A DNA stretch of 46,772 nt, from contig NZ_JALHMP010000033.1 in assembly GCF_022843985.1 (NCBI RefSeq), forward strand, positions 1 to 46,772, written 5' to 3'. This stretch comes from Phreatobacter sp. GTDB taxonomy: Bacteria > Pseudomonadota > Alphaproteobacteria > Rhizobiales > Phreatobacteraceae. Below the pieces are notes generated by a model that saw nothing but the letters and a program-made list of their open reading frames with translations, searched no databases and had not been told where the DNA came from. Positions 3,570 to 28,679 of this stretch are shown in pieces (within the stretch, counting starts at the first letter, position 1; each line of letters starts with the position of its first letter). Position numbers and translations under genes: made by a program.

Positions 3570-3594
3570 GGAACAGCCGCAAACACAAGCCGTT
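3570..3594 (+). promoter_or_regulatory. EcfG-type (general stress) promoter of the DUF6894/crp unit
   Basis: GGAAC at 3570-3574, 17-nt spacer, then GTT at 3592-3594 (context CGTTT). It matches the EcfG/SigT consensus GGAAC-N16-CGTT exactly. It lies 54 bp before the ATG at 3649. Confidence 0.75.
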
Positions 3595-3648
3595 TCATTA
3601 GTGATGCTTAAATCAGATGAGATCCTTTAAGGCAGCGGAGTCGACGCG

Positions 3649-3930
3649 ATGGAGCGCTATCTCTTCGATTTCGATGAGGATCGGGCTTCCCAGCCCAACG
3701 AACATTCCCTCGACTTTCCCACGTTCCAGACGGCTTACAGCGAGGCCGTTCGCGCGTTGAGCGAAATCATGGCGGAGAAGCTACCCTCCTACGGCCACGG
3801 CCGCTATCTCGCCATCACGGCCCGCGACGCTGTCACCGCCGCCATTTTCAGGGCGTCTCTGCGCTTCGATTCGCAGGCGCCCAGCTCGCGGCTGCTCGAC
3901 ACGCTCGTTACCCGCGTCGAGGGGAAGTGA
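3649..3930 (+). CDS. Small DUF6894-like protein
   Basis: A 93-residue soluble protein beginning MERYLFDFDED. This layout (MxRYxFDxxD, an acidic turn, then a long helix with Ala/Glu-rich EAVRALSEIMAEKL) resembles the small DUF6894 proteins abundant in Hyphomicrobiales, whose function is unknown. No signal peptide or cysteines. The TGA at 3928-3930 overlaps the ATG of the Crp/Fnr gene, so the two are translationally coupled. It is preceded by an EcfG-type promoter. The family call is from sequence style, not a search. Confidence 0.55.
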   Translation: MERYLFDFDEDRASQPNEHSLDFPTFQTAYSEAVRALSEIMAEKLPSYGHGRYLAITARDAVTAAIFRASLRFDSQAPSSRLLDTLVTRVEGK

Positions 3931-4655
3931 TGCGGGAGCCGATGCAGCCCTTCGTCGCTGCGCTTTCCGTCCGGGACGACCTGTCCGCCGAGGAGGTGCG
4001 CGCCCTCCACGATCTACCGATCCACCTGCGCTCATTCCAGCGGGGCGAGGAGATTGTCGGCGACCACACGCGGCCCGGCCGTAGTTCTCTCGTGATCGAC
4101 GGGACCTGCGGCCGGGTCGTGCAGGCCAGGGAGGGGCGGCAAATCACCGCCGTTCACGTGCCCGGAGATTTCGTCGATCTCCACTCGCTTTTGCTGAAGG
4201 TGATGGACCACTCGGTCGTAGCGCTAAGCGATTGCGTCGTGGGATCGGTGCCGCATGGCCATGTGGCCGGCCTCTGCGAGCGGCACCCCCATCTCGGCCG
4301 GCTGTTGTGGCTTTCCACGGTCATCGACGGGGCGATTCAGCGGAGCACCATCGCCAATATCGGTCGGCGGTCTGCTCTCCAGAGGCTGGCCCATCTCGTC
4401 TGTGAGCTGCATACCCGCCTTGCCGTGATCGGCCTTGCCTCCCCGAACGGCTTCACCTGCTCGTTCACCCAGACGGATCTCGGCGACATCCTCGGCCTGT
4501 CCGCAGTGCACGTGAACCGCACGATCCGCGACCTCAGGCACCGCAAACTCCTCTCGTGGTCTGGAAACCAGGTGCTGTTCTCGAGGTTTGAGAGCCTGGC
4601 TGCCTTCGCCGATTTCGATCCAACCTATCTCAACCTGCAAAAGGAGCCCCGCTAG
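3930..4655 (+). CDS. Crp/Fnr-family transcriptional regulator
   Basis: The product has 241 residues. An N-terminal cyclic-nucleotide-binding-like beta barrel (~25-145) includes FQRGEEIVGDHTRPG and the roll HVPGDFVDLHSLL. A long dimerisation helix follows (~135-165), then a C-terminal winged helix (~170-235) with recognition helix region TQTDLGDILGLSAVHVNRTIRDLR. No Fnr-type N-terminal cysteine cluster is present and the cAMP-contact residues of Crp are not evident, so the ligand is unknown. ATG 3930 is chosen (AGGGGA five bases upstream); GTG 3927 is an alternative. It shares the stress promoter of the preceding gene. FixK-like Crp/Fnr proteins of this shape are common near kinase genes in this order. 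Confidence 0.85.
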   Translation: MREPMQPFVAALSVRDDLSAEEVRALHDLPIHLRSFQRGEEIVGDHTRPGRSSLVIDGTCGRVVQAREGRQITAVHVPGDFVDLHSLLLKVMDHSVVALSDCVVGSVPHGHVAGLCERHPHLGRLLWLSTVIDGAIQRSTIANIGRRSALQRLAHLVCELHTRLAVIGLASPNGFTCSFTQTDLGDILGLSAVHVNRTIRDLRHRKLLSWSGNQVLFSRFESLAAFADFDPTYLNLQKEPR

Positions 4656-4729
4656 CCCATCGCCTCGCCTTAACAAAAAGCAATCCGAGCGCTCCGTCCC
4701 ACCGATATCGTCGTCTCGGAGGTGGACGC

Positions 4730-6397: not shown

Positions 6398-6421
6398 GCG
6401 GTTTGGGCGGCGCGTTTTTAA

Positions 6422-6446
6422 GGAACGGCCCGCCACACGGGTTGTT
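6422..6446 (+). promoter_or_regulatory. EcfG-type promoter of cinA-like gene 1
   Basis: GGAAC 6422-6426, 17-nt spacer, GTT 6444-6446. It sits 51 bp before ATG 6498, in the gap after the kinase stop codon. Confidence 0.72.
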
Positions 6447-6497
6447 GATCGTCGGAAACTGGCCTGTGGAGGCCAGCCGCAGGGTTGCAGGCTCACC

Positions 6498-7034
6498 ATG
6501 ATCGATCTCGTCGAAGCCGTGATGGAAGCGCTTGAAAGGCGCAAGTGGACGATCGCCTGCGCCGAAGCCTGCACCGCGGGGCGCCTGGCGCATGCGCTCG
6601 CCGGCGGGGGCGGCGCCTCGCACATCTTCCTCGGTAGCATCGTCACCTACAGGCCCTCGACCAAGACGCGGGTCGTTTCCGTCTTCGCCGAAAGCCTTGC
6701 CCGCCCGGAGGGGGCGGTGAGCGAGGACGTAGCGGCGCAGATGGCCCGGGGCGCCGCCGAACTCACCGGCGCCGACCTCGCGCTCGCCACGACCGGTGTC
6801 GCAGGGCCCGCCACCGTTGATGAGGGCAACCCCATAGGACGCATCTTCGTCGCGCTTCACGATGCGACAGAACATCCAGCGAGGGCTACCGTCCGGCGTT
6901 TCGATTTCGGCGATGTCGGTCCCGGCGAGGTCGTGGACAGAGCGGTAGATGCCGCCCTTATCCTCCTCGCAGGCCATATTGCCGCTGCTGCCCCGGACCC
7001 GCGGCCTGGCCAACAGGGTCGTTCGGGCAAGTGA
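6498..7034 (+). CDS. CinA C-terminal-domain protein (NMN amidase family), copy 1
   Basis: A 178-residue stand-alone CinA-C / PncC domain; active members deamidate nicotinamide mononucleotide in pyridine-nucleotide recycling. Recognisable blocks are VMEALERRKWTIACAEACTA, the FLGSIVTYRPSTKTRVV block, EGAVSEDVAAQMA and the hallmark TTGVAGP. The family motif is normally AESCTGG, whose Ser is the reported nucleophile; here it reads AEACTAG, with Ala replacing Ser and Ala replacing Gly. Amidase activity is therefore doubtful. ATG 6498 starts the domain cleanly and falls after the promoter; an upstream in-frame ATG at 6381 overlaps the kinase gene and is not credible. A second paralogue lies at 8673. 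Confidence 0.85.
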   Translation: MIDLVEAVMEALERRKWTIACAEACTAGRLAHALAGGGGASHIFLGSIVTYRPSTKTRVVSVFAESLARPEGAVSEDVAAQMARGAAELTGADLALATTGVAGPATVDEGNPIGRIFVALHDATEHPARATVRRFDFGDVGPGEVVDRAVDAALILLAGHIAAAAPDPRPGQQGRSGK

Positions 7035-7234: not shown

Positions 7235-7259
7235 GGAACCCCTTCTGTCTCCCGGGGTT
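7235..7259 (+). promoter_or_regulatory. EcfG-type promoter of the PepSY/YflT-like pair
   Basis: GGAAC 7235-7239, 17-nt spacer, GTT 7257-7259, 30 bp before ATG 7290. The surroundings (ATAGGAAC ... CCGGGGTTGATG) closely resemble the promoter at 19124. Confidence 0.78.
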
Positions 7260-7289
7260 GATGTCGATGGAACACAATGGGAGGCACTC

Positions 7290-7646
7290 ATGAAGACAAC
7301 CATCTCTACCGTGGCATTTGTTGCTCTACTGAGCAGCAATGCACTCGCTCAGACCCCCCCCGCGACCGCACCAGCGCCCACACCGCGCGCGACTCAGGCA
7401 CCTGCCCCGACTCCGTCAGCGCCGGCGACAAACACAAGCGCCGGCATGGTCAATGGCGCGGCGCTGGAAAATGGCGCGAACTCCTTCACCGAAGGGCAGG
7501 CTATGGAGCGACTGCGGGAGGCGGGCATCTCCTCGGTGACCGAACTGAAGAAGGACGACAACGGAATCTGGCGCGGTCGCGGTCAGTGGCAGGGCCGCAC
7601 GGTCGAAGTCGGTCTTGATTTTCGCGGCAACATTTCTGCTCGCTAG
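7290..7646 (+). CDS. Exported small protein with PepSY-like C-terminal domain
   Basis: The product has 118 residues. A classical Sec signal peptide (MKTTISTVAFVALLSSNALA, cleavage expected after ALA near residue 20) is followed by a ~35-residue Pro/Ala/Thr-rich linker and a compact domain (~60-118). The run FTEGQAMERLREAGISSVTE, then GIWRGRGQWQGRTVEVGLD and GNI resembles PepSY-like folds that serve as periplasmic inhibitor or ligand modules. Expected in the periplasm. No lipobox cysteine. It begins 30 bp after an EcfG-type promoter and is followed at 11 bp by the YflT-like gene, so the two form an operon. Confidence 0.7.
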   Translation: MKTTISTVAFVALLSSNALAQTPPATAPAPTPRATQAPAPTPSAPATNTSAGMVNGAALENGANSFTEGQAMERLREAGISSVTELKKDDNGIWRGRGQWQGRTVEVGLDFRGNISAR

Positions 7647-7657
7647 TGGAGGCAAAT

Positions 7658-8212
7658 ATGACCCAGACGATTACCGCCATTTTCGACAGCTATGACGCCG
7701 CAACACTCGCTGTTGCCCGTGTCCGCGGAGAGGGAATCAGCGAGCGGGATATTTCCGTGCTGTCAAACGACACGACGATCGATACGTCGCGGTTCAGCGA
7801 GTACCGCCCTGATGTTGACAGAGAAGAGGATGGCAGTGGGGCTGCGAGCGGCGCCGGACTTGGCGCTGCCGCGGGCGGAGCTGTAGGTCTTCTTGCAGGT
7901 CTTGGTCTGCTTGCCATCCCGGGCCTCGGTCCAGTCGTTGCTGCAGGCTGGCTTGCCGCAACCTTCGTTGGGGCGGGAGCAGGCGGGGCCGCAGGTGGTC
8001 TTGTTGGCGCCATGGTTGGTGCCGGTATGTCGGATGACGATGCCCACGCCTATGCCGAGGGTCTTCGGCGCGGCAGCACCGTGGTAACCGTACGTGCGCC
8101 CGAGGCATCCGCGGCGCGCATCCGTCAGATTCTCCACGAGGGCTCTTATGACATCAGCGAGCGCTCGCGGACCTGGCGTGATGACGGGTGGACAGGTCGC
8201 ACGGCCTACTGA
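7658..8212 (+). CDS. YflT/GS17M-type general stress protein with glycine zipper
   Basis: The product has 184 residues. The N-terminal part (TQTITAIFDSYDAATLAVAR through ISVLSN, ~1-45) matches the heat-induced stress protein YflT domain, including the ferredoxin-like start. The centre (~60-125) is a Gly/Ala-rich zipper pair (GAGLGAAAGGAVGLLAGLG and GAGAGGAAGGLVGAMVGAGM) able to insert in membranes. The C-terminal part (STVVTVRAPEASAARIRQIL) closes the domain. ATG 7658 is preceded by GGAGG at 7648-7652; the in-frame GTG 7646 overlaps the previous stop and lacks that spacing. It ends just before a strong terminator. The role is inferred only from the family name and the stress promoter. Confidence 0.82.
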   Translation: MTQTITAIFDSYDAATLAVARVRGEGISERDISVLSNDTTIDTSRFSEYRPDVDREEDGSGAASGAGLGAAAGGAVGLLAGLGLLAIPGLGPVVAAGWLAATFVGAGAGGAAGGLVGAMVGAGMSDDDAHAYAEGLRRGSTVVTVRAPEASAARIRQILHEGSYDISERSRTWRDDGWTGRTAY

Positions 8213-8413: not shown

Positions 8414-8672
8414 TTGTAGGTGCGTTGCGCCAGGCTTTTCTTGCCGAAAACCGCGCAGGGTTACGATCTCGTCGCTCATTGGGGTCGCTCGGTTCAGGAT
8501 TGGCTTTGGCAACCTAAACCTCCCTGGCAATCGCCGATGACCAACCTCGGCTACACCACGCCAGGGGACACGACCGACACGACCCTCTGCTGGGTGACAA
8601 ACCGCCTTCTGAAGCGTTCCACCGCGAGCACCGAACGTGCCTACGGGGGGACCGCGATCCATGGAGTGCATG

Positions 8673-9224
8673 ATGGGAGAGCTCAAACAGTCCCATCCGG
8701 ACGATCAGGCGGCGGCACGTCGCGCCGAAGCGATTGTCGAAGCGCTTCGCTCATCCGGCAGATCGGTAGCAACCGCAGAATCCTGTTCCATCGGACATAT
8801 CGGTAGGTACTTCGCTGGGGCGAGAGGCGCTTCGCGGGTCTATCTCGGGAGCGTCATCGCTTACACTAAGCGCAGCAAGCAGCGCGGCCTCGGCGTGTCG
8901 GACGAATTGCTGACCGGGCCCATGGGCGCAGTCACACGGGACGTCGCGATTGCGATGGCGGAAGGCGTCCTTGACCTCATGGGGGCAAGCATAGCGGTGG
9001 CCACGACGGGCGTCGCCGGACCGACGCCCGACGAGGACGGCAACCCAGTCGGAATGCTCGTCGTGGCGATCGCGGAGCAGGGCAAGGCGTCGGCCGCGGC
9101 AACGTTCGAGTTTAGGAGCCGCGACGTGGACGATTTCAACGCCTGTGCAGTCAGCAAGGCACTTGAAATGGTGGCAGAACGTCTGGGTCTCGACATGGAC
9201 GGATCAAATCGCGTGCCGGTTTGA
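8673..9224 (+). CDS. CinA C-terminal-domain protein (NMN amidase family), copy 2
   Basis: A 183-residue second stand-alone CinA-C domain. It has AIVEALRSSGRSVATAESCS, the YLGSVIAYTKRSKQRGLGV block, GPMGAVTRDVAIAMAEG and ATTGVAGPTPDEDGNPVG. Unlike copy 1 it keeps the Ser of AESC, but the following residues are SIG and not TGG. Several starts are possible (ATG 8661, 8670, 8673); 8673 has the best-spaced GGAG upstream. It is clearly paralogous to the 6498 gene, yet diverged, so this is not a recent tandem copy. I found no EcfG-type box in front of it. Likely function is NMN amidase or a related amidase; unproven. Confidence 0.85.
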   Translation: MGELKQSHPDDQAAARRAEAIVEALRSSGRSVATAESCSIGHIGRYFAGARGASRVYLGSVIAYTKRSKQRGLGVSDELLTGPMGAVTRDVAIAMAEGVLDLMGASIAVATTGVAGPTPDEDGNPVGMLVVAIAEQGKASAAATFEFRSRDVDDFNACAVSKALEMVAERLGLDMDGSNRVPV

Positions 9225-9245: not shown

Positions 9246-9270
9246 GGAACACGGGATCGGCGGCGGCGTT
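9246..9270 (+). promoter_or_regulatory. EcfG-type promoter of the ligD unit
   Basis: GGAAC 9246-9250, 17-nt spacer, GTT 9268-9270 (context GCGTTTCC). It lies 28 bp before ATG 9299 of the small gene coupled to ligD. Confidence 0.78.
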
Positions 9271-9298: not shown

Positions 9299-9514
9299 AT
9301 GGACGTCCGCGATAAGCTCATCCTGGCGCTGGCGGCACAATTGCGCGCCGAGCGGGACACGCGACAGGCGTTTGCCGACGCGGTGCGCGGCGGACTGCGC
9401 CGCGAGGTGCTGGTGGCTATGCTGGAGGATCCGGTGCCCGCAATCACTCAACTCGACCTTCTGGCCGCGGACGCCGCGGCCAGCAGCATGCCGCGCCGCT
9501 CCAGAGCCGCCTGA
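9299..9514 (+). CDS. 71-aa protein coupled to ligD, function unknown
   Basis: Short, highly charged, helix-rich protein (MDVRDKLILALAAQLRAERD, then QAFADAVRGGLRREVLVAML). No signal peptide, cysteines or known motif that I recognise. ATG 9299 has AGGAGAGG upstream and sits 28 bp after an EcfG-type promoter. Its TGA (9512-9514) overlaps the ligD ATG by one base, which implies translational coupling. That position makes a role linked to NHEJ, or merely as a leader for ligD translation, the simplest guesses. Confidence 0.65.
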   Translation: MDVRDKLILALAAQLRAERDTRQAFADAVRGGLRREVLVAMLEDPVPAITQLDLLAADAAASSMPRRSRAA

Positions 9515-12855: not shown

Positions 12856-12905
12856 ATGCACGGCGGGTGTCGGCAGTTCCGGAACTCCGTCGCCCAACCA
12901 ACGTT
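12856..12905. promoter_or_regulatory. Divergent ku control region with EcfG-type promoter
   Basis: Plus strand: GGAAC 12881-12885, 17-nt spacer, GTT 12903-12905, 27 bp before the copy B start. The -35 is half of a perfect 10-bp palindrome, GTTCCGGAAC (12876-12885), so the minus strand also has GGAAC (12880-12876) facing copy A. There the 17-nt-spaced -10 reads CATT, not CGTT, a weaker match. Confidence 0.72.
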
Positions 12906-14563: not shown

Positions 14564-14588
14564 GGAACCAGCGGCTGCCTTTGTTGTT
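14564..14588 (+). promoter_or_regulatory. EcfG-type promoter of membrane protein 14619
   Basis: GGAAC 14564-14568, 17-nt spacer, GTT 14586-14588. Transcription would begin near 14595, so the ATG at 14619 is a better start than ATG 14598 or 14406. Confidence 0.72.
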
Positions 14589-14618: not shown

Positions 14619-15119
14619 ATGCCCTCATCTGGCTCAACCGCGGTCGGCGCCGCTCCACCCCCTTCGTCCGCGCGCCGCCGACGGCTTGGCCGCATCTTGA
14701 GCCGAGCGGCCGCGATAAGCTTTTCCACTACTGCCGTCCTGGCCCTTGTAGCCCAATGGCAAAGCCGGCACCCGGTCCGCGTCGTCAACAGCACCAGCCA
14801 TTGGTGGCTGGGAGACGAGGGCGCGCGCACCGCGGCGGTGGATGCCAGGCACACGGTCACAGGTTTCGCCATTCACTCTGCGGCCTCTCTGCTCTGGGCG
14901 GCGGTTTTCGAAGCCGTGCGGGAGACGGGCCCCCGCCGCCCGCTCTGGACTGACGCAGTTGCCCTTTCCGCACTTGCGGCCCTTGTAGACTACGCCATCG
15001 TGCCGCGGCGCCTGACGCCTGGCTGGGAGAAAGTGGTCACGCCCGGCGGTATCGCCTGCGCATACGCTACCATGGCAATTTCCCTTGTCATCTGCGGCTC
15101 GGCCAAGGGCGACGCATAG
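14619..15119 (+). CDS. Small membrane protein, paralogue of 20915 gene
   Basis: About 166 residues. After a Ser/Ala/Pro-rich N-terminus, three or four hydrophobic segments: ISFSTTAVLALVA, GFAIHSAASLLWAAVFEA, AVALSALAALVDYAIVP and IACAYATMAISLVIC. The signature VNSTSHWWLGDE ... ALAALVDYAIVPRRLTPGWE is shared with the gene at 20915, so this is a paralogous inner-membrane family. I recognise no function. The start is uncertain; the frame is open to 14406, but ATG 14619 fits the promoter. It carries its own EcfG-type box, as does its paralogue. Confidence 0.75.
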   Translation: MPSSGSTAVGAAPPPSSARRRRLGRILSRAAAISFSTTAVLALVAQWQSRHPVRVVNSTSHWWLGDEGARTAAVDARHTVTGFAIHSAASLLWAAVFEAVRETGPRRPLWTDAVALSALAALVDYAIVPRRLTPGWEKVVTPGGIACAYATMAISLVICGSAKGDA

Positions 15120-15128: not shown

Positions 15129-15614
15129 TTAGCCGATCCAGGGCAGTTCGACGGAGGGACGGGCGATCATCAGCCATAGGATGGCGAGGATCGCGCCGAA
15201 TGCCGGGAACCCGAAAACAAACCAGGACCAGAACAGCCAGTAGTAGCGAGAGGGCAGGGGCGCGCCCGCGGCCTCGGCCGCTTCCGCAATGTCGCGGATC
15301 CCCATCTGGAGGACTACTACCGGCAGCCATAACAGGCCGATCACGACATAAAGAACGATAGACAGCACTATCCAGCCCTCGAGGAGGTGGTAGCCCATCT
15401 CGCGCGCCAGCAGGACGCCGGTGACCGGCTGGGCGATCACGGCGGTGGCCGTGAACAGGAAATCCGCCGTCACCACGATCCGGGCGACGCCGGCGATCCG
15501 TGACGCCTTGCCGGTCGTGTGGGCCGCGACCAGGAAGAAGGCGATGCCCGTCCCGGTGCCGATCAGAACGACAGCTCCCAGAACGTGCAGGTACTTGAGG
15601 ACAAGATGGGTCAT
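15129..15614 (-). CDS. DUF2269-type integral membrane protein
   Basis: A 161-residue protein with four hydrophobic helices: VLKYLHVLGAVVLIGTGTGI, VTADFLFTATAVIAQPVTG, IVLSIVLYVVIGLLWLPVVV and WSWFVFGFPAFGAILAILW. It includes the KYLHVLG histidine and a second-helix region typical of DUF2269 proteins, of unknown function. The ATG at 15614 overlaps the TGA of the upstream gene in an ATGA tetranucleotide, so it is the second gene of a minus-strand pair with the NAD-binding/DoxX fusion. Inner membrane expected. DUF2269 genes often accompany DoxX-like or NAD-binding genes. Confidence 0.8.
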   Translation of the reverse strand: MTHLVLKYLHVLGAVVLIGTGTGIAFFLVAAHTTGKASRIAGVARIVVTADFLFTATAVIAQPVTGVLLAREMGYHLLEGWIVLSIVLYVVIGLLWLPVVVLQMGIRDIAEAAEAAGAPLPSRYYWLFWSWFVFGFPAFGAILAILWLMIARPSVELPWIG

Positions 15615-16897: not shown

Positions 16898-17179
16898 TTC
16901 ACGCCTCCGCGGGTCCACCGGGAGGGAACGCCGTATCGGAAGCGCTGTGCCAATCTGCTGCACGAAATCTGACCCCTTTTCCGACGAGCTCGTCCGGTAG
17001 CTGCCTGCCTGCTTTGGTCGGTAGGAAGGATGGGGTCTGAAAGGAGATGGCAGCTTTTTGGGGGGCTGCGTCGGTGTTTCGCCAGCTGGAGCGCCGTTGT
17101 TTAGACATGTGCCTGCCAGGGCAGTTAAATTGGCCAGAGCCCGTCACCGGCGTGTCCTGTGGGCGCGCAATATCCAATG

Positions 17180-17204
17180 GGAACCTGGCCGCCGGTGTCG
17201 GGTT
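17180..17204 (+). promoter_or_regulatory. EcfG-type promoter of the DUF892 unit
   Basis: GGAAC 17180-17184, 17-nt spacer, GTT 17202-17204, 25 bp before ATG 17230. The remaining 16898-17179 stretch between divergent genes shows no gene. Confidence 0.78.
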
Positions 17205-17229: not shown

Positions 17230-17736
17230 ATGCCGCGGACCGAAGACCGCTTGGACCAATGGCTGCGCGATGCCCATGCAATGGAGCAGCAAGCCGTAAA
17301 GATGCTCGACGGCATGGCCGATCGCATCCAGAACTATCCCGACCTCAAGGCCCGCATTACCCGCCACGCGGAGGAGACACGGCTGCAGGCGGCCGCCATC
17401 GCGGATTGCCTGAAGCGGCGTGGCACCGACGTGTCCACGTTGAAAGATATGGCCGGTAAGGTCATGGGCCTGGGCCAAGCCTTTAGCGGCCTCGTCGTCG
17501 GCGACGAGATCATCAAGGGGTCGATGGCCGGCTATACGTTCGAGCACATGGAGATTGCCGCCTACAGGGTGCTGGTCGCCACAGCAGAACGGGCGGGCGA
17601 TATCGAGACGCGGGACGCCTGCCAGGCCATCCTCAAGGAAGAGGAGGAGATGGCCGCTTGGCTCGCAGAGCATCTCGCGCCGACCACGTTGCGGTATCTT
17701 GAGCGCGAGGCGAGCGGCCAGACCGCCAAGCACTGA
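17230..17736 (+). CDS. DUF892 (YciE/YciF) ferritin-like protein
   Basis: A 168-residue all-helical protein: LDQWLRDAHAMEQQAVKMLD, LKARITRHAEETRLQAAAI, YTFEHMEIAAYRVLVATAER and EEEEMAAWLAEHLAPTTLRY. The regularly placed Glu/His residues (EQQ, HAEET, EHMEIAAY, EEEEMAAW) correspond to the di-metal four-helix bundle of YciF-like proteins, which are stress-induced and structurally ferritin-like. ATG 17230 has CGGAGGA five bases upstream. It lies directly after an EcfG-type box and heads a three-gene unit with DUF2243 and a 57-aa ORF. Cytoplasmic; enzymatic or storage role unproven. Confidence 0.9.
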   Translation: MPRTEDRLDQWLRDAHAMEQQAVKMLDGMADRIQNYPDLKARITRHAEETRLQAAAIADCLKRRGTDVSTLKDMAGKVMGLGQAFSGLVVGDEIIKGSMAGYTFEHMEIAAYRVLVATAERAGDIETRDACQAILKEEEEMAAWLAEHLAPTTLRYLEREASGQTAKH

Positions 17737-18450: not shown

Positions 18451-18463
18451 GCCGGCGCCATTT

Positions 18464-18488
18464 GGAACAGAGCCGCTACCGTCCGGTT
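18464..18488 (+). promoter_or_regulatory. EcfG-type promoter ahead of the decayed dehydrogenase
   Basis: GGAAC 18464-18468, 17-nt spacer, GTT 18486-18488, 25 bp before ATG 18513. The promoter is intact although the gene is not. Confidence 0.72.
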
Positions 18489-18512: not shown

Positions 18513-18969
18513 ATGAAGGCACTGACCTTTGCATGGCAAAGCCGACATGCGATGCGAGAGCGTCCCCGATCCGACCATTCAGGACTGCCGCGACGCCATC
18601 ATCAAGATAATGGCCTGCGCTATCTACAGCTCGGACCTGCACATTTACGGGGGCATCATCCCGGAGATGCAGTCGGGCGACGTCATCGGCCAAGAGTCGA
18701 TGGGCGAGGTCCTCAAGGTCGGCAGGGACAACAAGGCGTTGAAGGTCGGCGACCGGGTCATAGTCCCCTTCACTGTCTCCTGTGGCGAGTTTTTCTTTTG
18801 CCGGCGCGGTTTCTTCTCCAGCTGTAATCGCACCAATCCCAACGCCGCCAAGGCGGAGAAGGAGTGGGGCCACGCACCGGGCGGGCGCACCCTCAAGGAT
18901 GGCCCCGAACTCTACAAGACGTTCCGTGAAAAGAAGGACGGCTGCATCAAGGTCGTCCTGAAGCCCTAA
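18513..18969 (+). pseudogene. Decayed formaldehyde-dehydrogenase-like zinc alcohol dehydrogenase
   Basis: The original start MKALT (18513-18527) is followed by a one-base insertion near 18528; the rest of the protein continues in another frame (HGKADMRCESVPDPTIQDCR, GDVIGQESMGEVLKVG, LKVGDRVIVPFTVSCGEFFF). The catalytic-zinc Cys of the CAICGSD motif is lost (CAIYSSD). After WGHAPGG the sequence jumps to a C-terminal-type end (RTLKDGPELYKTFREKKDG, IKVVLKP), so roughly 240 residues including the Rossmann fold are deleted. It is a non-functional relic of a glutathione-independent formaldehyde-dehydrogenase-like enzyme of about 390 residues. Confidence 0.85.
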
Positions 18970-19123: not shown

Positions 19124-19148
19124 GGAACGCCTGTCCGTCCTCCGGGTT
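19124..19148 (+). promoter_or_regulatory. EcfG-type promoter, FAD/Rieske gene
   Basis: GGAAC 19124-19128, 17-nt spacer, GTT 19146-19148. It is about 170 bp before ATG 19317. The 18970-19316 gap otherwise shows no gene. The sequence around it resembles that at 7235. Confidence 0.7.
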
Positions 19149-19316
19149 GATGGTGGCGCATCGGAGTGGATGGCCGACTATTGCCTCGCTCGGACGCGTC
19201 CCTCGCGAGCCCTGCCGTGCCCGGATGTAAGGTGGGCAGGGCCGCATCGGGGGCACCGAACCGCCGAGCCTTCACGTCCCCAGCGAGTGTTCGGCCCCAA
19301 GGGAGGTTGTGCCGCG

Positions 19317-20858
19317 ATGAACGTGCTTACGGAAAACAGCAACTCGATCTGGATGGACGTGAAGGTGGCCCCGGAAGCAACGCCGCTGACCGCGGACACC
19401 GGGGCCGACGTTGTCGTCGTGGGGAGCGGCATCGCCGGCCTGTCCACCGCCTACGAACTCGTCCTCGCTGGATATTCGGTGGTTGTCCTCGACCGCGGCG
19501 TCATCGCCGGCGGGATGACCGCACGCACCACCGCCCATCTCGCTTCTGTCTGTGACGATGGTCTCTCCGACCTCCTGTCCATGCGGGGGCGCGATCTCGT
19601 CCGCGGCTTCCACACGAGCCAGACCGCGGCAATCGACCGGATCCAGCAAATCCAGGAACGGTTGAAGATCGATTGCAATTTCCGCCGGCTGCCCGCCTTC
19701 CTCTTCCTTGATGCCAGCAGTGACGAAAGCGTGCTCGACGACGAGGTTGCGGCGGCGGCTGAAATCGGTGTCGCGGTGGAACGCGGCGTCGGACTGCCGC
19801 TGCGGGGGCTTGGTGGTCACCCCTGTCTCACCTATCCGCGGCAGGCGACCTTCCACCCGCTGAAATACCTGCGTGGCCTCGCCGAGGCACTCGTGTCGGA
19901 CGGCTGCCGTCTTCATCCCTTCAGTGCCGTCACCGCGGTCGAGGAGGTCGGGGACGAGGTGCGGGTGAAAGTGGCGGGAGGACACGCCGTCACTGCCCGC
20001 CATGCGGTTGTGGCCACTAACTCGCCGATCCACGATCTCGTAGCGATCCACACCAAGCAGGCGCCCTACCGGACCTACGCGATGGGGTTCGAGATCGCGC
20101 CCGGACGGCTGGCCGATGCGCTCTACTGGGACACGGCGGACCCCTACCACTATGTGCGGCTGGACTCGGGCCATACGGAGGGGAACGAGGCCGATATCCT
20201 CATTGTCGGCGGCGAGGACCACAAGTCCGGCGAGGCGGACGACGCGCCGGACCGCTTCGATCGCCTCGATAGGTGGATCCGCGCGCTGCTGCCCGATCTC
20301 GGACCAGAGCGCTTCCGCTGGTCCGGTCAGGTGATGGAGACGCTTGATTATTGCGGCTACATCGGCGCCGATGGCGGCAGCAGCCGCGTCTTTGTCGCGA
20401 CGGGCGATTCCGGGCAGGGCATGACCCATGGCGTCGTGGCGAGCCTCGTCATCGCGGATCTCATCGCCGGGCGATCGTCCCCGTTCGCCGACGTCTATGA
20501 CCCGGACCGCAAGCCAGTGAAGGCGGCGACGACCTACATCAGCGAGAATCTGACCGCAGTGACGAACATGGCGCAATATCTCGCGCCGGGAGAAGTCTCC
20601 TCGGTGGATGAGCTGGAGCCGGGTCAAGGCGCCATCGTTCGCGATGGTCTGAAGAAGATCGCCGCCTATCGGGCGCCGGACGGTACCCTCTTCGAGCGCT
20701 CTGCCGTGTGTACCCATCTCGGCTGCCACCTGGCGTGGAACAGTTTCGAGCTGTGCTGGGATTGTCCGTGCCACGGGTCGCAGTTCGCTCCCGATGGAGC
20801 AGTGCTCAACGGCCCGGCGATCACCCCGCTGGCCGTGGTGGAGCGAGACTCAGCATAG
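19317..20858 (+). CDS. FAD-dependent oxidoreductase with C-terminal Rieske domain
   Basis: The product has 513 residues. The N-terminal DAO-type FAD domain (~25-400) carries the dinucleotide motif VVVVGSGIAGLSTAYELVLA and TARTTAHLASVCDDG. The C-terminal Rieske [2Fe-2S] domain (~420-513) has ligands in CTHLGCHLAW (Cys465) and CWDCPCHGSQF. This fusion is known in predicted oxidoreductases beside glycine/D-amino-acid oxidase-like enzymes; the substrate is unknown. No signal peptide, so cytoplasmic. ATG 19317 has AGGGAGG upstream; an earlier in-frame ATG at 19170 starts close to the promoter and adds 49 unconserved residues. It is followed by a gene with its own stress promoter. Confidence 0.92.
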   Translation: MNVLTENSNSIWMDVKVAPEATPLTADTGADVVVVGSGIAGLSTAYELVLAGYSVVVLDRGVIAGGMTARTTAHLASVCDDGLSDLLSMRGRDLVRGFHTSQTAAIDRIQQIQERLKIDCNFRRLPAFLFLDASSDESVLDDEVAAAAEIGVAVERGVGLPLRGLGGHPCLTYPRQATFHPLKYLRGLAEALVSDGCRLHPFSAVTAVEEVGDEVRVKVAGGHAVTARHAVVATNSPIHDLVAIHTKQAPYRTYAMGFEIAPGRLADALYWDTADPYHYVRLDSGHTEGNEADILIVGGEDHKSGEADDAPDRFDRLDRWIRALLPDLGPERFRWSGQVMETLDYCGYIGADGGSSRVFVATGDSGQGMTHGVVASLVIADLIAGRSSPFADVYDPDRKPVKAATTYISENLTAVTNMAQYLAPGEVSSVDELEPGQGAIVRDGLKKIAAYRAPDGTLFERSAVCTHLGCHLAWNSFELCWDCPCHGSQFAPDGAVLNGPAITPLAVVERDSA

Positions 20859-20882
20859 GAACCGCGCCGGCGGGCAGGGGTT
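20858..20882 (+). promoter_or_regulatory. EcfG-type promoter of membrane gene 20915
   Basis: GGAAC 20858-20862, overlapping the last base of the Rieske gene, 17-nt spacer, GTT 20880-20882, 32 bp before ATG 20915. Confidence 0.75.
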
Positions 20883-20914: not shown

Positions 20915-21355
20915 ATGTCGTTTCTGTCCCGGGTCCTGCTAACCGGCACCACCGCCAGCCTCTCATCGGCCGGCCTCCTGGGTGTCCTTGCCAAGGCCGA
21001 GGGCCGCGATCCTGTCCAGCCGGTCAACGCGACCAGCCATTGGCTGCACGGGGAGATCGCCGGCCATTCGAAGGTACTCAACGTGCGGTACACCTTGGTT
21101 GGTTTTGCCAGCCACTACGCCGCGTCGGTCTTCTGGAGCACGGTTTTTCAGCGCTTGCGACAGGCGCGGCCGGACCGCTCGCCGGTACCAGACGCCTTGG
21201 GCGTGACGGCGCTGGCCGCTCTAGTGGACTACGCATTGGTCCCCAAGCGGCTGACGCCCGGATGGGAGTCGGTGGTGTCGCCGGCCTCAATCGCGATCGC
21301 CTATGCCGCCCTGACTCTATCCTTCCTCGCGACCTGCCCGCCGCGGGGCAGATGA
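20915..21355 (+). CDS. Small membrane protein, paralogue of 14619 gene
   Basis: A 146-residue inner-membrane protein. The blocks VNATSHWLHGE, VGFASHYAASVFWSTVFQ and TALAALVDYALVPKRLTPGW match the 14619 product closely along the full length. About four hydrophobic stretches. Invariant His, Trp and Asp residues in TSHW and LVDYA suggest a defined active or binding site, but no function is known to me. ATG 20915 has GAGGGAGA upstream. It probably forms an operon with the next gene, 10 bp downstream. Confidence 0.8.
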   Translation: MSFLSRVLLTGTTASLSSAGLLGVLAKAEGRDPVQPVNATSHWLHGEIAGHSKVLNVRYTLVGFASHYAASVFWSTVFQRLRQARPDRSPVPDALGVTALAALVDYALVPKRLTPGWESVVSPASIAIAYAALTLSFLATCPPRGR

Positions 21356-21365
21356 GAGAGCCCCC

Positions 21366-21869
21366 ATGTCGTTGAACGGTAAGCTCGTCCTTAGCGGCCT
21401 CGCCGGCTTTGTCGCAACGTTGCCGATGACCGCGGCGATGTCGCGGCTGCACGCTCGCCTGCCACGTCGCGAACGTTATCCCCTGCCGCCGCGCGAGATC
21501 GCCGAGAACCTGCCGAAGTTCGGTATGCCCACCTCGGTCGCGACGCTGGCGTATCATTTCCTTTATGGTGCCGCCGCCGGCAGCCTCTATGCCGCACTCT
21601 GTAACAGACGCGATCCCATGACCGGCGCATTGTTCGGCGTCGGCGTATGGGGGGCGAGCTATCTCGGCTGGATTCCGGCGGCGCGAATCCTCACTTTCGG
21701 CAAGCGCCACCCAGCCCGGCGCAACAGCTTGATGCTCGTCTCCCATATTGTATGGGGCGCCACACTGGCGATGAGCCTCAGAGAGCTCGAAGCGGCGCGA
21801 GGCAGCGTCTTTTCTCTGGCCGAGGCTAGCCGCCCCAACCTTCTAGACAGGGCGGATCGCCAAGGTTGA
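21366..21869 (+). CDS. YagU/DUF1440-like membrane protein
   Basis: A 167-residue protein with helices at LVLSGLAGFVATLPMTAAMS, ATLAYHFLYGAAAGSLYAAL, GALFGVGVWGASYLGWIPAA and LMLVSHIVWGATLAMSL. The arrangement of a Gly-rich first helix with PMTAAM, a YHFLYGAxxG helix and a SHIVWG helix is reminiscent of YagU/DUF1440 proteins. In this order such genes often neighbour the TSHW-type membrane family, as here at 10 bp. Function unknown. ATG 21366 starts the first hydrophobic block directly. It shares the promoter at 20858. Confidence 0.65.
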   Translation: MSLNGKLVLSGLAGFVATLPMTAAMSRLHARLPRRERYPLPPREIAENLPKFGMPTSVATLAYHFLYGAAAGSLYAALCNRRDPMTGALFGVGVWGASYLGWIPAARILTFGKRHPARRNSLMLVSHIVWGATLAMSLRELEAARGSVFSLAEASRPNLLDRADRQG

Positions 21870-22674
21870 TAAAGCGGGAGTTGAACTCCGAAACCGACCT
21901 GAACAGAGCGCCCCCGTCATTTGGTCGGCCCGGGACGACGCCGGTTCCTCTCGTTGCTGAGGGATGCCATCACTGCAATGACAGGAATGCCGCGGCGTCA
22001 GCCTTCGGTCTATACAATGCTGAATCGGATCTTCACGGTGACCAAGGGCTTGAGGTAAGCGATAAAGCTCCCCGCTCCATCCCCGGGTTTCCAGCCATTC
22101 CTTCTGGAGCCGCTATCAGGTGGTGGCGACGGGACCCGAACGTGTCAGACTGCGGTGCTACGCCGTCTCCGCTGGTTCGCCTTATCCATCAAATCGTCTC
22201 GCTGCCCGCCGGGCTGACTCTCGACATATGCGTCAGCGCGGATCAACTCCTTTTCGGAACGTCTCGAGCCACCGTCCTTGTGCGGAAAGCCCCCTTGCTG
22301 CTTGCGAGCACCCCTCGCCAGCTCTCCCTGTTTGGGGTCGGAATGGGGCACGCGACCGCTATTGAATCGACGGATCATGTTTGGTCCTCTCTCGCATTCC
22401 CTTGGAAAACAGAACGTCGACATCGATGTTCCCTCGGGGACGGCGGAAAATTGGCAAGGGGCGCTTCAAGATCTTGCAAGCCGAGACTGTCTTTAGGCCT
22501 GATGGTCCCTTGCGATGGGAGACCTCCCCCAAAAATCGGAACTTGTTGCGGCAGGCTGAGTCGAACATCTCGGAGAGGCAAGGGGCGTGCATTCGCTTGG
22601 GACTGCCTGCTGCAGGCTGAACGAGAACGCGCCCCAGGGGCCGGCGCCTCTTCCGGTGCCGAGCACACCGGCGA
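21870..22674. other. Long stretch without a supported gene
   Basis: Open frames cross this region on both strands, but none shows a domain, a plausible start or coding-like composition. It may be the remains of older insertions. A tRNA-like phrase near 22121-22175 does not fold into a tRNA on inspection. Confidence 0.5.
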
Positions 22675-22699
22675 GGAACTGGTTCGTCAGCTGCAAGTT
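22675..22699 (+). promoter_or_regulatory. EcfG-type promoter ahead of the YodC-like gene
   Basis: GGAAC 22675-22679, 17-nt spacer, GTT 22697-22699. The leader to ATG 22841 would be about 130 nt, longer than at the other units, so the assignment to that gene is less certain. Confidence 0.55.
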
Positions 22700-22840
22700 G
22701 GGACCGTCTACACGGTCATGGCGATGAGCAGCCATTTGCAGGAGCGAATAGCAGATTGCCCGGCAGACCAATCGCGAAAGCCGACGAAGTAAACACAAAT
22801 GCCGATAAATCTACCGCGTGGTCGGGAGGAGAGTCAGGTG

Positions 22841-23248
22841 ATGAAATTGCTTTTGGAAGGCTATGCCGAAAAGCAACCCCCGTTGGCGCGGGGGGATTGG
22901 GTCAGAACGCTCACCGGCGGTCCGCCCATGGAAGTTGTGGGTCTGGACATCGATGGCTCCCCGATGTGCAGGTTGAATGGCAAGGTCTACAGCATAAGCT
23001 CGGCGATCCTTCGGCGCGTTGATGAAGTGTCGGCGCACGATGGAAGGCCGCGACGTGGCAGGCCTGTCGGAACCCGTTTGCGGCAGACCCACACGCCAGG
23101 GACAAGCGGTAAGATTTTTTGCACGGCCGATATTGCCGCCATGCGCCGGATCTTTTGCGAAGCCCGGGCACGGCTTTGCTCCAATGGAAATCGCGCATTG
23201 GAGCGGAAACTCGCGTTGGCGATTGTGCGGTCGTGGCCAGAGGTCTGA
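22841..23248 (+). CDS. DUF2158 (YodC-like) N-terminal domain protein
   Basis: About 135 residues from ATG 22841 (GGAGGA about nine bases upstream; ATG 22799 is an alternative). Residues ~15-60 (LARGDWVRTLTGGPPMEVVG, then DGSPMCRLNGKVYSI) fit the small beta domain of DUF2158/YodC proteins (GDxVxLxSGGPxMTVxG). The C-terminal half (ADIAAMRRIFCEARARLCSN, RALERKLALAIVRSWPEV) is helical and I do not recognise it. A basic Arg/Gly-rich linker lies between (GRPRRGRPVGTRLRQ). Function unknown. The nearest promoter is the EcfG-type box at 22675. Confidence 0.6.
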   Translation: MKLLLEGYAEKQPPLARGDWVRTLTGGPPMEVVGLDIDGSPMCRLNGKVYSISSAILRRVDEVSAHDGRPRRGRPVGTRLRQTHTPGTSGKIFCTADIAAMRRIFCEARARLCSNGNRALERKLALAIVRSWPEV

Positions 23249-23437: not shown

Positions 23438-24580
23438 TTACTTTCGCCTGCTCCGGCCAGGCTGCATTCCGTCGAAGCGGGCCTGCTGGTGCGCCAGTTC
23501 CTCGGCGAAATCAGCATGCAGGGCCCGCTCGCCCAGCGCATCCGGCATGGTAAGGAGGCCCGTCTCGCAGAGCCGGTCATCGTCCCAGCCGGGGTAGTCC
23601 AGCACCGGATAGAGGCAGATGCCCTCGACCGGAACACCGCCGGCAAGGGCCCGCCGCACCTCGGAACAGACATAGTGTAGCCAGGACGACCGGGCGCTGC
23701 GTTCCGACCCGGTCTCAGCAATGACGATGGGCCGGTGGTAGCGGGCGAAGACCTCTTGCAGGATCTCCGAGAAGGGGCGGTAGCCGTGATGGCCGAGTGG
23801 GAGCGTCGAGCCGCGGTGCAGCCACTGGTTCCGCGGGTAGTAGTTCAGTCCGACAATGTCGACGAGATCCTCCCGGCCGCCGAGTTCTGGCGCTACTCGG
23901 CCCGCCATCATGTCGAGAGCCTCGAATTGCGCCAAGCGGTACAGCTCGGCCGTCCTGCGGACCGCTGCTCTTCGCGAATAGCTCTGGATGTGGATGGCCG
24001 GCTCCGCAAGGAGGAAGCGGCTCGCCGGCTGCTCTGCCCTGATCGCGTCGACCGCCGCCACCGAGGCCCGAACGAGTTGCTCCTTGAGCGGCCGGCCGCG
24101 CTGCCGGGCGCAAGGGTTGATTGCTGCGACATCGCCGCCCGCCCAGGCGAGGAACGACATTTCGTTGATCGCGCAAAAGAACGGAACGCTGTCACTCTCC
24201 GCGCTGACGAGCTTGGCCGCAGCCGCCGAAAACCGGGCGAAGCGGTCCACGAAATGCGGTGACCAGATGTCGAGTCCGTCCGGCCAGCCGAAATGGCAGA
24301 GGTCCCAAATTACCTGGACATCGGCTTCCTGCGCGGCGCGCAGCATGGGCAGGACGCTGGACCAGTCGTAAACACCGGGAGCCTGCTCGATGAGGTGCCA
24401 GCGGAACCCGTCGCGGATGGTTCTCAGTCCCAAGCCTGCGACCGTACGGTAGTCGCTTGCGGCGAGGCGGTCGTGCCCTGTCGCCGCCAGGAGGTCGAGC
24501 CTCCGGCCGTCGCGACGCCGGTGCGTGGCGCATTCGAACCCTGCCAGGAAGAAACTCTTGAACAGGGGCTCGTCGGCCAA
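23438..24580 (-). CDS. Clan-A glycoside hydrolase (beta-glucosidase-like)
   Basis: A 380-residue TIM-barrel glycosidase. The strand/Arg motif LRTIRDGFRWHLIEQAPGVY resembles GH1/GH5/GH39-type entries. The acid/base Glu is in FCAINEMSFLAW, the nucleophile Glu in IVIAETGSERSA, and the C-terminal WDDDRLCETGLL helps shape the site. No signal peptide, so it is probably cytoplasmic or acts on an intracellular or lipid-linked sugar. It lies divergent from a glycosyltransferase and UDP-galactopyranose mutase, suggesting work on one glycan. The exact GH family cannot be set by eye. An upstream GGAAC-N18-GTT faces it. Confidence 0.8.
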   Translation of the reverse strand: MADEPLFKSFFLAGFECATHRRRDGRRLDLLAATGHDRLAASDYRTVAGLGLRTIRDGFRWHLIEQAPGVYDWSSVLPMLRAAQEADVQVIWDLCHFGWPDGLDIWSPHFVDRFARFSAAAAKLVSAESDSVPFFCAINEMSFLAWAGGDVAAINPCARQRGRPLKEQLVRASVAAVDAIRAEQPASRFLLAEPAIHIQSYSRRAAVRRTAELYRLAQFEALDMMAGRVAPELGGREDLVDIVGLNYYPRNQWLHRGSTLPLGHHGYRPFSEILQEVFARYHRPIVIAETGSERSARSSWLHYVCSEVRRALAGGVPVEGICLYPVLDYPGWDDDRLCETGLLTMPDALGERALHADFAEELAHQQARFDGMQPGRSRRK

Positions 24581-24621: not shown

Positions 24622-24647
24622 AACAGCCGTCCAGGCGGCCCTGTTCC
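24622..24647 (-). promoter_or_regulatory. EcfG-like promoter (N18) of the glycosidase gene
   Basis: Read on the minus strand: GGAAC at 24647-24643, 18-nt spacer, GTT at 24624-24622, 41 bp before the start at 24580. The spacer is one base longer than in most sites here. Confidence 0.55.
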
Positions 24648-24715: not shown

Positions 24716-24741
24716 GGAACTTCGCTTCGACGCCCTGAGTT
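24716..24741 (+). promoter_or_regulatory. EcfG-like promoter (N18) of the glycosyltransferase-glf unit
   Basis: GGAAC 24716-24720, 18-nt spacer, GTT 24739-24741, about 92 bp before ATG 24834. It is divergent from the minus-strand site at 24647. Confidence 0.55.
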
Positions 24742-27168: not shown

Positions 27169-27357
27169 CAGGATCGGCGGCGGGCCGTCGAACACCTAGG
27201 CCACGATCTGAAGGCGTGGTGCCTGGGCGCGCTAAGGCCGCGGGCCGACCAGCCACGTGGAAATGCGTCATACCGCTCCCTGCTCGGGGAGAACGGCCAG
27301 GGGCCGGACCGACGAAATTCAGGCCCTTGCCGGACATGCCGACGCGGATTGGGATTT

Positions 27358-27383
27358 GGAACAGGTCTATGTGTCGGTCGGTT
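27358..27383 (+). promoter_or_regulatory. EcfG-like promoter (N18) of the Mn-catalase gene
   Basis: GGAAC 27358-27362, 18-nt spacer, GTT 27381-27383, about 115 bp before ATG 27499. The 27169-27498 gap otherwise shows no gene. Confidence 0.58.
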
Positions 27384-27498
27384 GTGCCTCGGACGGCAAC
27401 CCGTAGTGGCGGCCGTCGTGCAGATCCTGATTGCCCAATCAATGCGAGCGATCAGGGCGGAGTATCCTCCTTGACCAAAAACAGCACCGAGGCCTGCC

Positions 27499-28371
27499 AT
27501 GTTCTTCCGCACCAATCAGTTCCAGTATAATGCCCGTCCAGAGGCGCCGGATCCTGTATATGCCCGCAAGCTTCAGGAGGTTCTCGGCGGCCAGTGGGGC
27601 GAGATCAGCGTCATGATGACCTATCTCTTTCAGGGTTGGAACTGCCGCGCACCGGCGAAGTATCGCGACATGATCCTCGACATCGGCACCGAGGAAATCG
27701 CCCATGTCGAGATGATCGCCACCATGATCGCCCGGCTCCTGGAGAGTTCGCCAGTCGAGGCGGCGGAGGAGGCCGCGAAGAATTCGGCGGTCGGCGCCAT
27801 CCTCGGCGGCTCCCGGCTTGAGGACGTCATCGTTGCCGGCATGAACCCGCAGCACGCCATCGTCTCCGGCGGCGGCGCGGTGCCGGCCGACAGCGTGGGC
27901 TACCCCTGGACGGCCCGTTACACTATCGCATCCGGCAATCTCCTCGCCGACTTCCGCTTCAACGTCACCGCGGAATCGCAGGGACGGCTGCAAGTCTGCC
28001 GTCTCTACGAGTTAACTGACGATCCCGGTATTCGCGACATGCTCTCTTTCCTGATCGCTCGCGACACCATGCATCAGAACCAGTGGCTTGCGGCAATTGC
28101 CGAGCTGGAGGCCGATGGCCTCGACGCCACGCCGGTCCCGAAGGCCTTCTCGCGCGAGAAGGAGATGGGCGATGTCGCCTACCAGTTCTGGGACTGCTCA
28201 GGCGGCAGCGAGAGCCGCGAAGGTCGTTGGGCGAGCGGACCCACGCCAGACGGAACAGGTGAGTTCGTCTATCTCGGCAAGCCGAGCCCCCTCGGGGAGG
28301 TGGTGGAGTGTCTCGGCCCCGTCGATCCCCGGCTCTTCGGCACGCCGAAGGCGCTCCAGCCGCCGACCTGA
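27499..28371 (+). CDS. Manganese catalase
   Basis: A 290-residue non-haem, di-manganese catalase. The four-helix-bundle ligands are visible in ALQ-type positions: E in LGGQWGEISVMMTYLFQ, E and H in DIGTEEIAHVEMIATMIA, E in NVTAESQGRLQVCRLYE and H in ARDTMHQNQWLAAIAELE. It disproportionates hydrogen peroxide in the cytoplasm. ATG 27499 begins MFFRTNQFQYNARPEAPDPV, standard for the family. The length is normal. Its promoter is of the EcfG-like kind, as often reported for Mn-catalase genes in this class. Confidence 0.95.
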   Translation: MFFRTNQFQYNARPEAPDPVYARKLQEVLGGQWGEISVMMTYLFQGWNCRAPAKYRDMILDIGTEEIAHVEMIATMIARLLESSPVEAAEEAAKNSAVGAILGGSRLEDVIVAGMNPQHAIVSGGGAVPADSVGYPWTARYTIASGNLLADFRFNVTAESQGRLQVCRLYELTDDPGIRDMLSFLIARDTMHQNQWLAAIAELEADGLDATPVPKAFSREKEMGDVAYQFWDCSGGSESREGRWASGPTPDGTGEFVYLGKPSPLGEVVECLGPVDPRLFGTPKALQPPT

Positions 28372-28653
28372 CCCTAATGGGTGAGCAGTCCCCATCACAG
28401 TCGGCTGTCGCCTTGCGGCGCAGCTTGTCAGAGCCAGCAGTGATAGGCGACCACGCCGGGGGCCGCGGTAGTGGCGGCCCGAATCCTCACTTTCTCCAAC
28501 CACACGCTGAATTGATCCTGCCCGGGCATGACATCGTCCACCGGCTAAACATTGGCGGGGCTGGTTTGCGAGTGCTTATTGACCAGGAATGGGACCATCG
28601 GAGGTGCCGACCGGACTCGACCACCATATTCCCGTTCCATCGCGCCGCGTAAA

Positions 28654-28679
28654 GGAACGTCCGCAAAGAGAACGCTGTT
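28654..28679 (+). promoter_or_regulatory. EcfG-like promoter (N18) of the NDH-2 gene
   Basis: GGAAC 28654-28658, 18-nt spacer, GTT 28677-28679, 35 bp before ATG 28715. The rest of 28372-28653 shows no gene. Confidence 0.62.

Follow-up and report, generated by a model that had tools for sequence, protein, structure and literature searches.

The closest described systems are the PhyR-NepR-EcfG responses of Sphingomonas melonis Fr1, Sphingopyxis granuli TFA and Sinorhizobium meliloti (RpoE2). According to published reports, the EcfG motif is GGAAC-N17-20-GTT and Ku is on the list of EcfG-dependent genes (PMC6599016), and ku-ligD is among the direct EcfG targets (PMC7083833). Earlier work has already described EcfG promoters, Ku and LigD among the targets, and an EcfG paralogue located on a plasmid (PMC6599016, PMC7083833, PMC3892343, PMC3616915, PMC6180224, PMC4167512). 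We analyzed a window of 46,772 nucleotides, the entire contig NZ_JALHMP010000033.1 (C33) of the Phreatobacter sp. assembly GCF_022843985.1 (G000; 4.33 Mb in 53 contigs), and compared it with eleven congeners (G001-G011), giving 12 Phreatobacter genomes in total. The same motif and the same master genes are found here, and the targets overlap with those described, including Ku, LigD, catalases, a Crp-type regulator, a glycosyltransferase and PRC-barrel proteins. We consider it probable that ~27 kb of the window (~3.5-30.7 kb; hereafter the island, with 15.8 kb of right flank) is an acquired stress island, in which at least 14 putative transcription units have their own EcfG-type promoter and would be transcribed together by the EcfG of the host.

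Exact matches to GGAAC-N17/18-GTT were counted directly, with the reversed pattern as control. The window contains 17 matches, compared with 2 of the reversed pattern and an average of 2.27 over 100 shuffles, none of which exceeded 7. Sixteen matches lie in the island and none in the right flank, and block-shuffling the island 300 times produced 1.09 matches on average and never more than 5. All 15 sites named in the original prediction (11 with N17 and four with N18) are present on the strands it gave, and we found two more, at 3073 (+ strand, within a response-regulator-like open reading frame (ORF)) and 22408 (- strand, antisense within an ORF). When the spacer in GGAAC-Nn-GTT was varied from 10 to 25 nt over the island, 12 matches fell at N17, four at N18 and 0-2 at each other length, which together with the shuffles bears out the claim that the sites exceed chance. 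Placement also fits: 15 of the 16 island sites end 5-150 nt upstream of a same-strand start, where 7.0% of positions would qualify, in a test that is inflated by some gene starts having been picked with the motif in view. The figure becomes 14 of 16 if the oxidoreductase starts at 19317, the position (residue 50) where its match to a Bosea plasmid protein begins and which puts the promoter 168 nt upstream. Some gene starts proposed earlier need correction: the ORF at 18513 is in the wrong frame, 19317 is possible with 19170 as the alternative, and 22841 may instead be 22799. Over the whole genome there are 176 matches and 114 of the reversed pattern. A scan of contigs C1-C33 (160 of the 176 matches), counting matches per 25 kb with overlapping pairs merged, identified only two stretches with more than five, on C33 (16) and on C10 (14), the next having five and four; density elsewhere is therefore not equal to that of the island, except at the switch locus on C10. 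In 10 of the 12 Phreatobacter genomes the form GGAAC-N16/17-CGTT is more frequent genome-wide than its reversed control (71 versus 49 in the genome studied), and it is rarer than the control in the two largest (G006, 104 versus 155; G011, 123 versus 161). An explanation of the excess by chance or base composition could draw on the shortness of the motif, the modest genome-wide excess and the CGTT deficit in G006 and G011, but the shuffles never reached the observed counts, and the reversed control, the spacing scan, the placement and the recurrence described below also contradict it. We reject this explanation, whose probability we regard as close to nil.

The second motif cluster is the neighbourhood of the switch genes themselves. 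This stretch of C10 (97144-122159; loci L003 and L004), with its 14 matches per 25 kb, holds ecfG (sigma-70 regions 2 and 4), phyR (PhyR sigma2 and sigma-like domains and a receiver), a HisKA_2 kinase gene after ecfG and an HWE kinase gene, as well as transglutaminase, ABC transporter, PRC-barrel, DUF883, DUF892 and amidase genes. Between phyR and ecfG sits a 65-residue ORF (counted from an inner ATG) with an EcfG-type site upstream, which we take to be NepR-like from its position and a sequence motif. Since EcfG, PhyR and the NepR-like ORF are all on C10, the genome has the switch. The motif stands before both the NepR-like ORF and ecfG, and in five other Phreatobacter genomes the ecfG regions hold 11-19 motifs per 40 kb with 0-2 reversed. 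The steps from kinase to PhyR belong to the established pathway. Most probably, stress signals would reach HWE/HisKA_2 kinases, one of which is encoded on the island behind an EcfG-type site, PhyR would sequester NepR and free EcfG, and EcfG-RNA polymerase would transcribe both the C10 cluster and the island. Judging from the gene families, the likely benefit would be that end-joining repair (Ku, LigD, glycosylase), removal of peroxide (Mn catalase), electron flow (NDH-2), ferritin-like protection and the sugar chemistry of the envelope all increase together. We infer EcfG dependence and joint induction from the sequence, and the master stress switch of the host can probably control the island as a set.

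Six places in the genome matched in a search for EcfG. None of them is on C33, and the island yielded no EcfG gene. An island-specific second EcfG was considered and rejected: the next best match after EcfG (36%, on C7) looks, as judged by eye, like an ordinary extracytoplasmic function (ECF) sigma factor followed by its own anti-sigma factor. A related possibility is that the promoters are read by a different ECF sigma factor whose -35 box is similar, acting alone or with EcfG. The targets of S. meliloti RpoE6 do overlap the RpoE2 regulon (27 of 40; PMC6180224), further ECF-like genes are present in the genome, and the -10 boxes of the window are unlike those of the C10 cluster. However, the C7 gene, with its apparent anti-sigma ORF, is the best candidate and has no GGAAC-type motif in the 12 kb around it, the island motif is shared with the upstream regions of the NepR-like ORF and ecfG, and TGTT and GGTT boxes are transcribed with EcfG of Sphingopyxis in vitro (PMC7083833). 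We therefore regard a different ECF sigma factor as very unlikely.

The sites have the form (GGAAC-N16/17-cGTT type) and the spacing of an EcfG regulon, although the C of the -10 box precedes GTT in only 3 of 17. This feature, like the probable acquisition of the cluster, is absent from the original prediction, whose reading of an EcfG-promoter stress cluster otherwise agrees with the counts, spacing, placement and recurrence and with the EcfG, PhyR and NepR-like ORF of the genome. Among the closest parallels is a 20-kb part (~273-292 kb) of the Bosea sp. Tri-49 plasmid NZ_CP017947.1. Of the 30 island ORFs tested, 12 have a match there with 30-69% identity, and the 14619 and 20915 ORFs, which are among these 12, hit one and the same Bosea ORF. 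Gene order is kept for the epimerase-DUF2269 and 20915-21366 pairs, the 18529 ORF and the oxidoreductase gene are adjacent in swapped order, and a methyladenine glycosylase is annotated immediately outside the 20 kb. In Bosea, EcfG-type motifs precede the LigD gene, the two Ku genes and the relative of the 18529 ORF, while the Mn catalase, galactofuranose and NDH-2 genes had no match in 50 kb of the plasmid. A C precedes GTT at 3 of 13 Bosea sites and at 98 of 155 sites among the other Phreatobacter clusters examined (Fisher P 0.0004 for the window and 0.007 for Bosea against the latter), and by this share the window promoters seem closer to those of the plasmid than to those of the host. Such numbers would also be expected if the sites were EcfG promoters in a donor and have mostly decayed, or are poorly read, in the present host. 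Yet all 15 named sites retain GGAAC and GTT unchanged, though the search demanded exactly those letters, and boxes lacking the C are common in a known regulon (PMC7083833). The -10 box of Sphingopyxis granuli is flexible, with CGTT, TGTT, CATT and GGTT promoters all transcribed with EcfG in vitro, so sites without the C can work (PMC7083833). Decay or poor reading in this host is in our opinion quite unlikely.

Further support for EcfG promoters is provided by their recurrence before relatives of the island genes. For each of 174 matches to window genes, taken from the fetched loci, we asked whether a sense-strand motif lies no more than 200 nt before the start. Loci of the same genome other than the C10 stretch, L136 (inside L142 except for its last kilobase) and L006 (taken to be contig C97 of G004) were excluded, as were matches that started after residue 25, covered less than half of the query or lacked a full upstream stretch. 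A motif was found before 35 of the 174, compared with 2 for the reversed pattern and 15 antisense. It stands before all four relatives of the Mn catalase (two plasmid copies at 81% identity and two congener copies at about 30%), all four of the small ORF upstream of ligD, 17 of 56 of Ku and 7 of 51 of LigD, which is often second in its operon, and before one of one PepSY-like, one of four Crp and one of one 18529-ORF relatives. The PepSY-like site is before the G003 copy, and a motif also lies near the estimated start in G001, G006 and G011. For the core genes of the right flank (six genes) the count was 0 of 31. A Skermanella plasmid carrying glycosyltransferase-glf-glycosidase genes has sites ~100 and ~460 nt before the annotated glycosyltransferase gene that the 174-match count missed. 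Overall these results suggest that the promoters seem to travel with the genes.

The surroundings of ligD are dense in two congeners, holding 28 motifs per 40 kb in G011 (3 reversed) and 21 per 40 kb in G006 (2 reversed). Lower counts were obtained for G002 (9 motifs and 1 reversed in 40 kb), G003 (6 and 2 in 29 kb) and G004 (5 and 0 in 20 kb). Motif-rich DNA as a general trait of ligD loci in named genomes was rejected, as alphaproteobacterial loci (by title) gave 111 motifs versus 69 reversed in 0.98 Mb; the other ligD loci gave 21 versus 15 in 0.27 Mb. Two dense exceptions were observed, in metagenome-assembled genomes of Hyphomicrobiaceae (L011, 13 in 22.5 kb, 0 reversed) and Hyphomonadaceae (L012, 9 in 22.5 kb, 1 reversed). 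Plasmid ligD regions of ~32 kb each have 2 (Microvirga), 1 (Phyllobacterium) and 2 (Shinella) motifs, so a dense cluster is not a trait of every ligD plasmid. The oxidoreductase region of S. meliloti Ak57 pSymB has none in 17.5 kb, and that of Bosea NBC_00550 has 6 (2 reversed) in 25.5 kb, none of them before the oxidoreductase gene. A separate observation concerns a congener stress cluster at L130 (G002, contig C1, about 607 kb) and L131 (G004, contig C115), with YflT-like and methylpurine-DNA glycosylase (MPG) genes and a distant Mn catalase, preceded in both by an EcfG-type motif 30 nt upstream; L130 has a PepSY-like gene too.

Comparison with the congeners suggests how the island came to its site. 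To the right of ~30.7-31.1 kb the window aligns to ten congeners at ~79-96% DNA identity over the MerR and acyl-CoA dehydrogenase genes, and in G010 through the ATP synthase genes. The island genes to the left of this junction were not found at E 1e-6 in these ten (G006 was left out); the one exception is G002, where the LigD ligase domain has a match at 33%. Upstream of MerR the sequence could be read for ~37 kb in six congeners and for 2.6-4.4 kb in four (G003, G004, G007 and G010), and seven of these sites have 0-2 motifs. Another block is common to 7 of the 10 congeners there. Its end lies between 0.13 and 7.6 kb from MerR, and this variation suggests that the site may be a hot spot for insertions. 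In the genome studied this block is on another contig, C44, which leaves the congener alignment at ~19.1 kb and has 0 motifs in 25.5 kb. Near the point of departure is a partial tyrosine-recombinase match (Phage_integrase, 26.9 bits with a cut-off of 27.1), on a contig unlinked to C33; the left end of the island is not on the contig of the window. If C44 and C33 flank one insertion, as we presume, it would span ~50 kb or more and not consist entirely of stress DNA. The mean GC content at third codon positions (GC3) is 0.737 in the island (27 ORFs, one in the wrong frame), versus 0.901 for 12 flank genes and 0.836 for 16 genes of the C10 cluster. Absence from the same site in close relatives and deviating composition, both marks of a genomic island, were thus found, and the ~3.5-30.7 kb stretch was probably acquired horizontally.

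Alternatively, with the promoters still real, the island could be a stress cluster that the ancestral chromosome already had, which this genome retained and the congeners lost or relocated. Congeners do have relatives of LigD, Ku, the small ORF, the PepSY-like and YflT-like proteins and MPG at other places, several with the same promoters, and the dense ligD regions of G011 and G006 would be in keeping with such a history. In contrast, the island was not found adjoining MerR in the ten congeners, its GC3 is low, and LigD has no match in G007 and G010, the nearest genomes by acyl-CoA dehydrogenase (97% and 96%) with a completeness of 85% and 99%. Among the genes searched, moreover, the Mn catalase and the oxidoreductase have their nearest relatives on plasmids from other genera, at 81% (Pelagibacterium and Nitratireductor) and 69% (Bosea), whereas relatives of the Mn catalase within the genus are only 33-34% identical (two congeners) and the DAO-Rieske oxidoreductase has no match at E 1e-60 in the 11 congeners, with 30% partial relatives in the ligD regions of G006 and G011. 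An ancestral cluster is therefore unlikely in our assessment.

Several points weigh against a pre-wired, acquired island. No motif was found before relatives of the YflT-like protein (0 of 6), MPG (0 of 3), the epimerase-DoxX protein (0 of 3), DUF2269 (0 of 2) and the 20915 ORF (0 of 2), some of which are second genes of operons, nor before the single relatives of CinA, DUF892, the 14619 ORF, the DUF6789-like protein, the glycosidase-like protein and the glycosyltransferase; the shares for LigD and Ku are low as well. Fourteen of the 17 window sites lack the C before GTT and some may be weak, and the placement test has the inflation noted above. The Bosea stretch, with 13 motifs per 50 kb and 6 reversed, is a weaker case than the window with its 17 and 2. 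The insertion rests on two unlinked contigs, four congener sites were read for only 2.6-4.4 kb, and G006 is outside that comparison. Finally, the in-genus relatives of the small ORF (81-86%), LigD (58-70%), Ku (58-68%), PepSY-like (62-78%), YflT-like (51-68%) and MPG (59-62%) proteins leave room for some of the island genes being old and having disappeared elsewhere. With these points included, we still favor acquisition and control by the host EcfG.

The coordinates of the features are given in Table 1. Gene families were assigned with Pfam, and orphan status was checked with Pfam and NCBIfam.

Table 1. Putative promoters, genes and boundaries in the window (promoter entries give spacer and -10 box)
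Feature	Position	Strand	Basis or remark
IS3-type insertion sequence with ALIL frameshift element	1628..2949	+	left of the cluster
EcfG-type promoter, N17, CGTT	3570..3594	+	motif match; before DUF6894-Crp-kinase genes
DUF6894 protein; Crp/FNR-type regulator; dCache-HAMP-HisKA_2/HWE kinase	3649-3930; 3927-4655; 4730-6397	+	Pfam; operon assumed
EcfG-type promoter, N17, TGTT	6422..6446	+	motif match
CinA-family protein	6498..7034	+	Pfam E 7e-38
EcfG-type promoter, N17, GGTT	7235..7259	+	motif match
Weakly PepSY-like protein and YflT-like/holin-like protein	7290..8212	+	Pfam, scores below cut-off
Second CinA-family protein	8637..9224	+	Pfam E 4e-38
EcfG-type promoter of ligD operon, N17, CGTT	9246..9270	+	motif match; recurs before small-ORF relatives (4/4)
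Small conserved ORF; LigD	9299-9514; 9514-12018	+	Pfam; relatives
EcfG-type promoter of ku, N17, CGTT	12881..12905	+	motif match; recurs before Ku (17/56)
Ku; methylpurine-DNA glycosylase (MPG)	12933-13793; 13790-14338	+	Pfam
EcfG-type promoter, N17, TGTT	14564..14588	+	motif match
ORF of unknown family, apparent paralogue of 20915-21355	14619..15119	+	one Bosea plasmid ORF matched by both
NAD-epimerase/DoxX protein; DUF2269 membrane protein	15611-16963; 15129-15707	-	Pfam
EcfG-type promoter, N17, GGTT	17180..17204	+	motif match
DUF892 ferritin-like protein	17230..17736	+	Pfam
EcfG-type promoter, N17, GGTT	18464..18488	+	motif match; present before Bosea relative too
Conserved unknown ORF	18529..18969	+	54% identical to Bosea plasmid stretch; 18513 ORF is another frame
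EcfG-type promoter, N17, GGTT	19124..19148	+	motif match
FAD oxidoreductase (DAO) with Rieske domain	19170..20858	+	start 19170 or 19317
EcfG-type promoter, N17, GGTT	20858..20882	+	motif match
Three unknown proteins: paralogue of 14619 ORF, DUF6789/DUF1440-like (below cut-off), 308-aa orphan	20915..22792	+	
Possible EcfG-type promoter, N17, AGTT	22675..22699	+	inside 3' end of preceding ORF; weakest of set
149-aa orphan ORF	22799..23248	+	no Pfam or NCBIfam match; start 22799 possible
Distant glycosidase-like protein	23438..24580	-	several plasmid relatives annotated beta-glucosidase or beta-galactosidase
EcfG-type promoter, N18, TGTT	24622..24647	-	motif match
EcfG-type promoter of galactofuranose genes, N18, AGTT	24716..24741	+	motif match
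Glycosyltransferase; UDP-galactopyranose mutase	24834-26009; ORF 25759-27168	+	Pfam; mutase start probably near 26000
EcfG-type promoter of Mn catalase, N18, GGTT	27358..27383	+	motif match; before 4/4 relatives
Manganese catalase	27499..28371	+	81% to plasmid-borne relatives
EcfG-type promoter, N18, TGTT	28654..28679	+	motif match
NDH-2-type NADH dehydrogenase	28715..30031	+	Pfam
Right junction, start of DNA homology to congeners	30673..31146		30673 for G007, ~30980-31146 for others

No exact motif was found upstream of the epimerase-DoxX/DUF2269 genes (15129..16963, - strand). The two ORFs at 21866-23248 have no Pfam or NCBIfam match, and the 308-residue one is also without a match in the plasmid collection. 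We note that a single stress cluster holds two CinA-domain proteins, and that the 14619-15119 and 20915-21355 proteins also match many Sinorhizobium plasmids. At the left edge of the window is a leucine-rich-repeat protein (113-1213), and the IS3-type element has a 77% copy on contig C17. A 118-bp repeat (window 1-118) is shared with the ends of five other contigs (C39, C30, C20, C11 and C14). These contig ends were compared with the region upstream of MerR in the congeners and rejected, as they gave a single match of 95 bp.

Dense EcfG-promoter islands lacking a sigma factor were not found described in the open-licence literature that we searched, as far as its available parts go. If our reading is true, a general stress regulon can apparently expand through the gain of whole pre-wired blocks and not gene by gene, which would help explain species differences and the many unknown genes in these regulons. 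It would also provide a sequence-only route to candidate stress genes, with every operon of such a cluster a candidate; the unknown families 14619, 18529 and 20915, which recur beside some of the same genes in Bosea, would be among them. More tentatively, and with somewhat less than even confidence, we propose that mobile stress islands with many EcfG promoters and no EcfG form a class that recurs on plasmids and chromosomes of Hyphomicrobiales and would join the stress response of any host; relaxed GGTT and TGTT boxes may suit the EcfG of many hosts. The Bosea sp. Tri-49 stretch resembles the present island but is on a plasmid and has the smaller motif excess (13 versus 6). Rhizobium etli EcfG2 and the accessory stress genes of rhizobial plasmids likewise place general stress components on accessory replicons (PMC3892343), with the difference that the R. 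etli plasmid carries an EcfG paralogue and none was found on the Phreatobacter island. In S. melonis, as far as the gene numbers in the available part of the report tell, EcfG targets are spread genome-wide in small local groups, with no comparably dense block mentioned, whereas here ~15 promoters are gathered in 25 kb of apparently acquired DNA.

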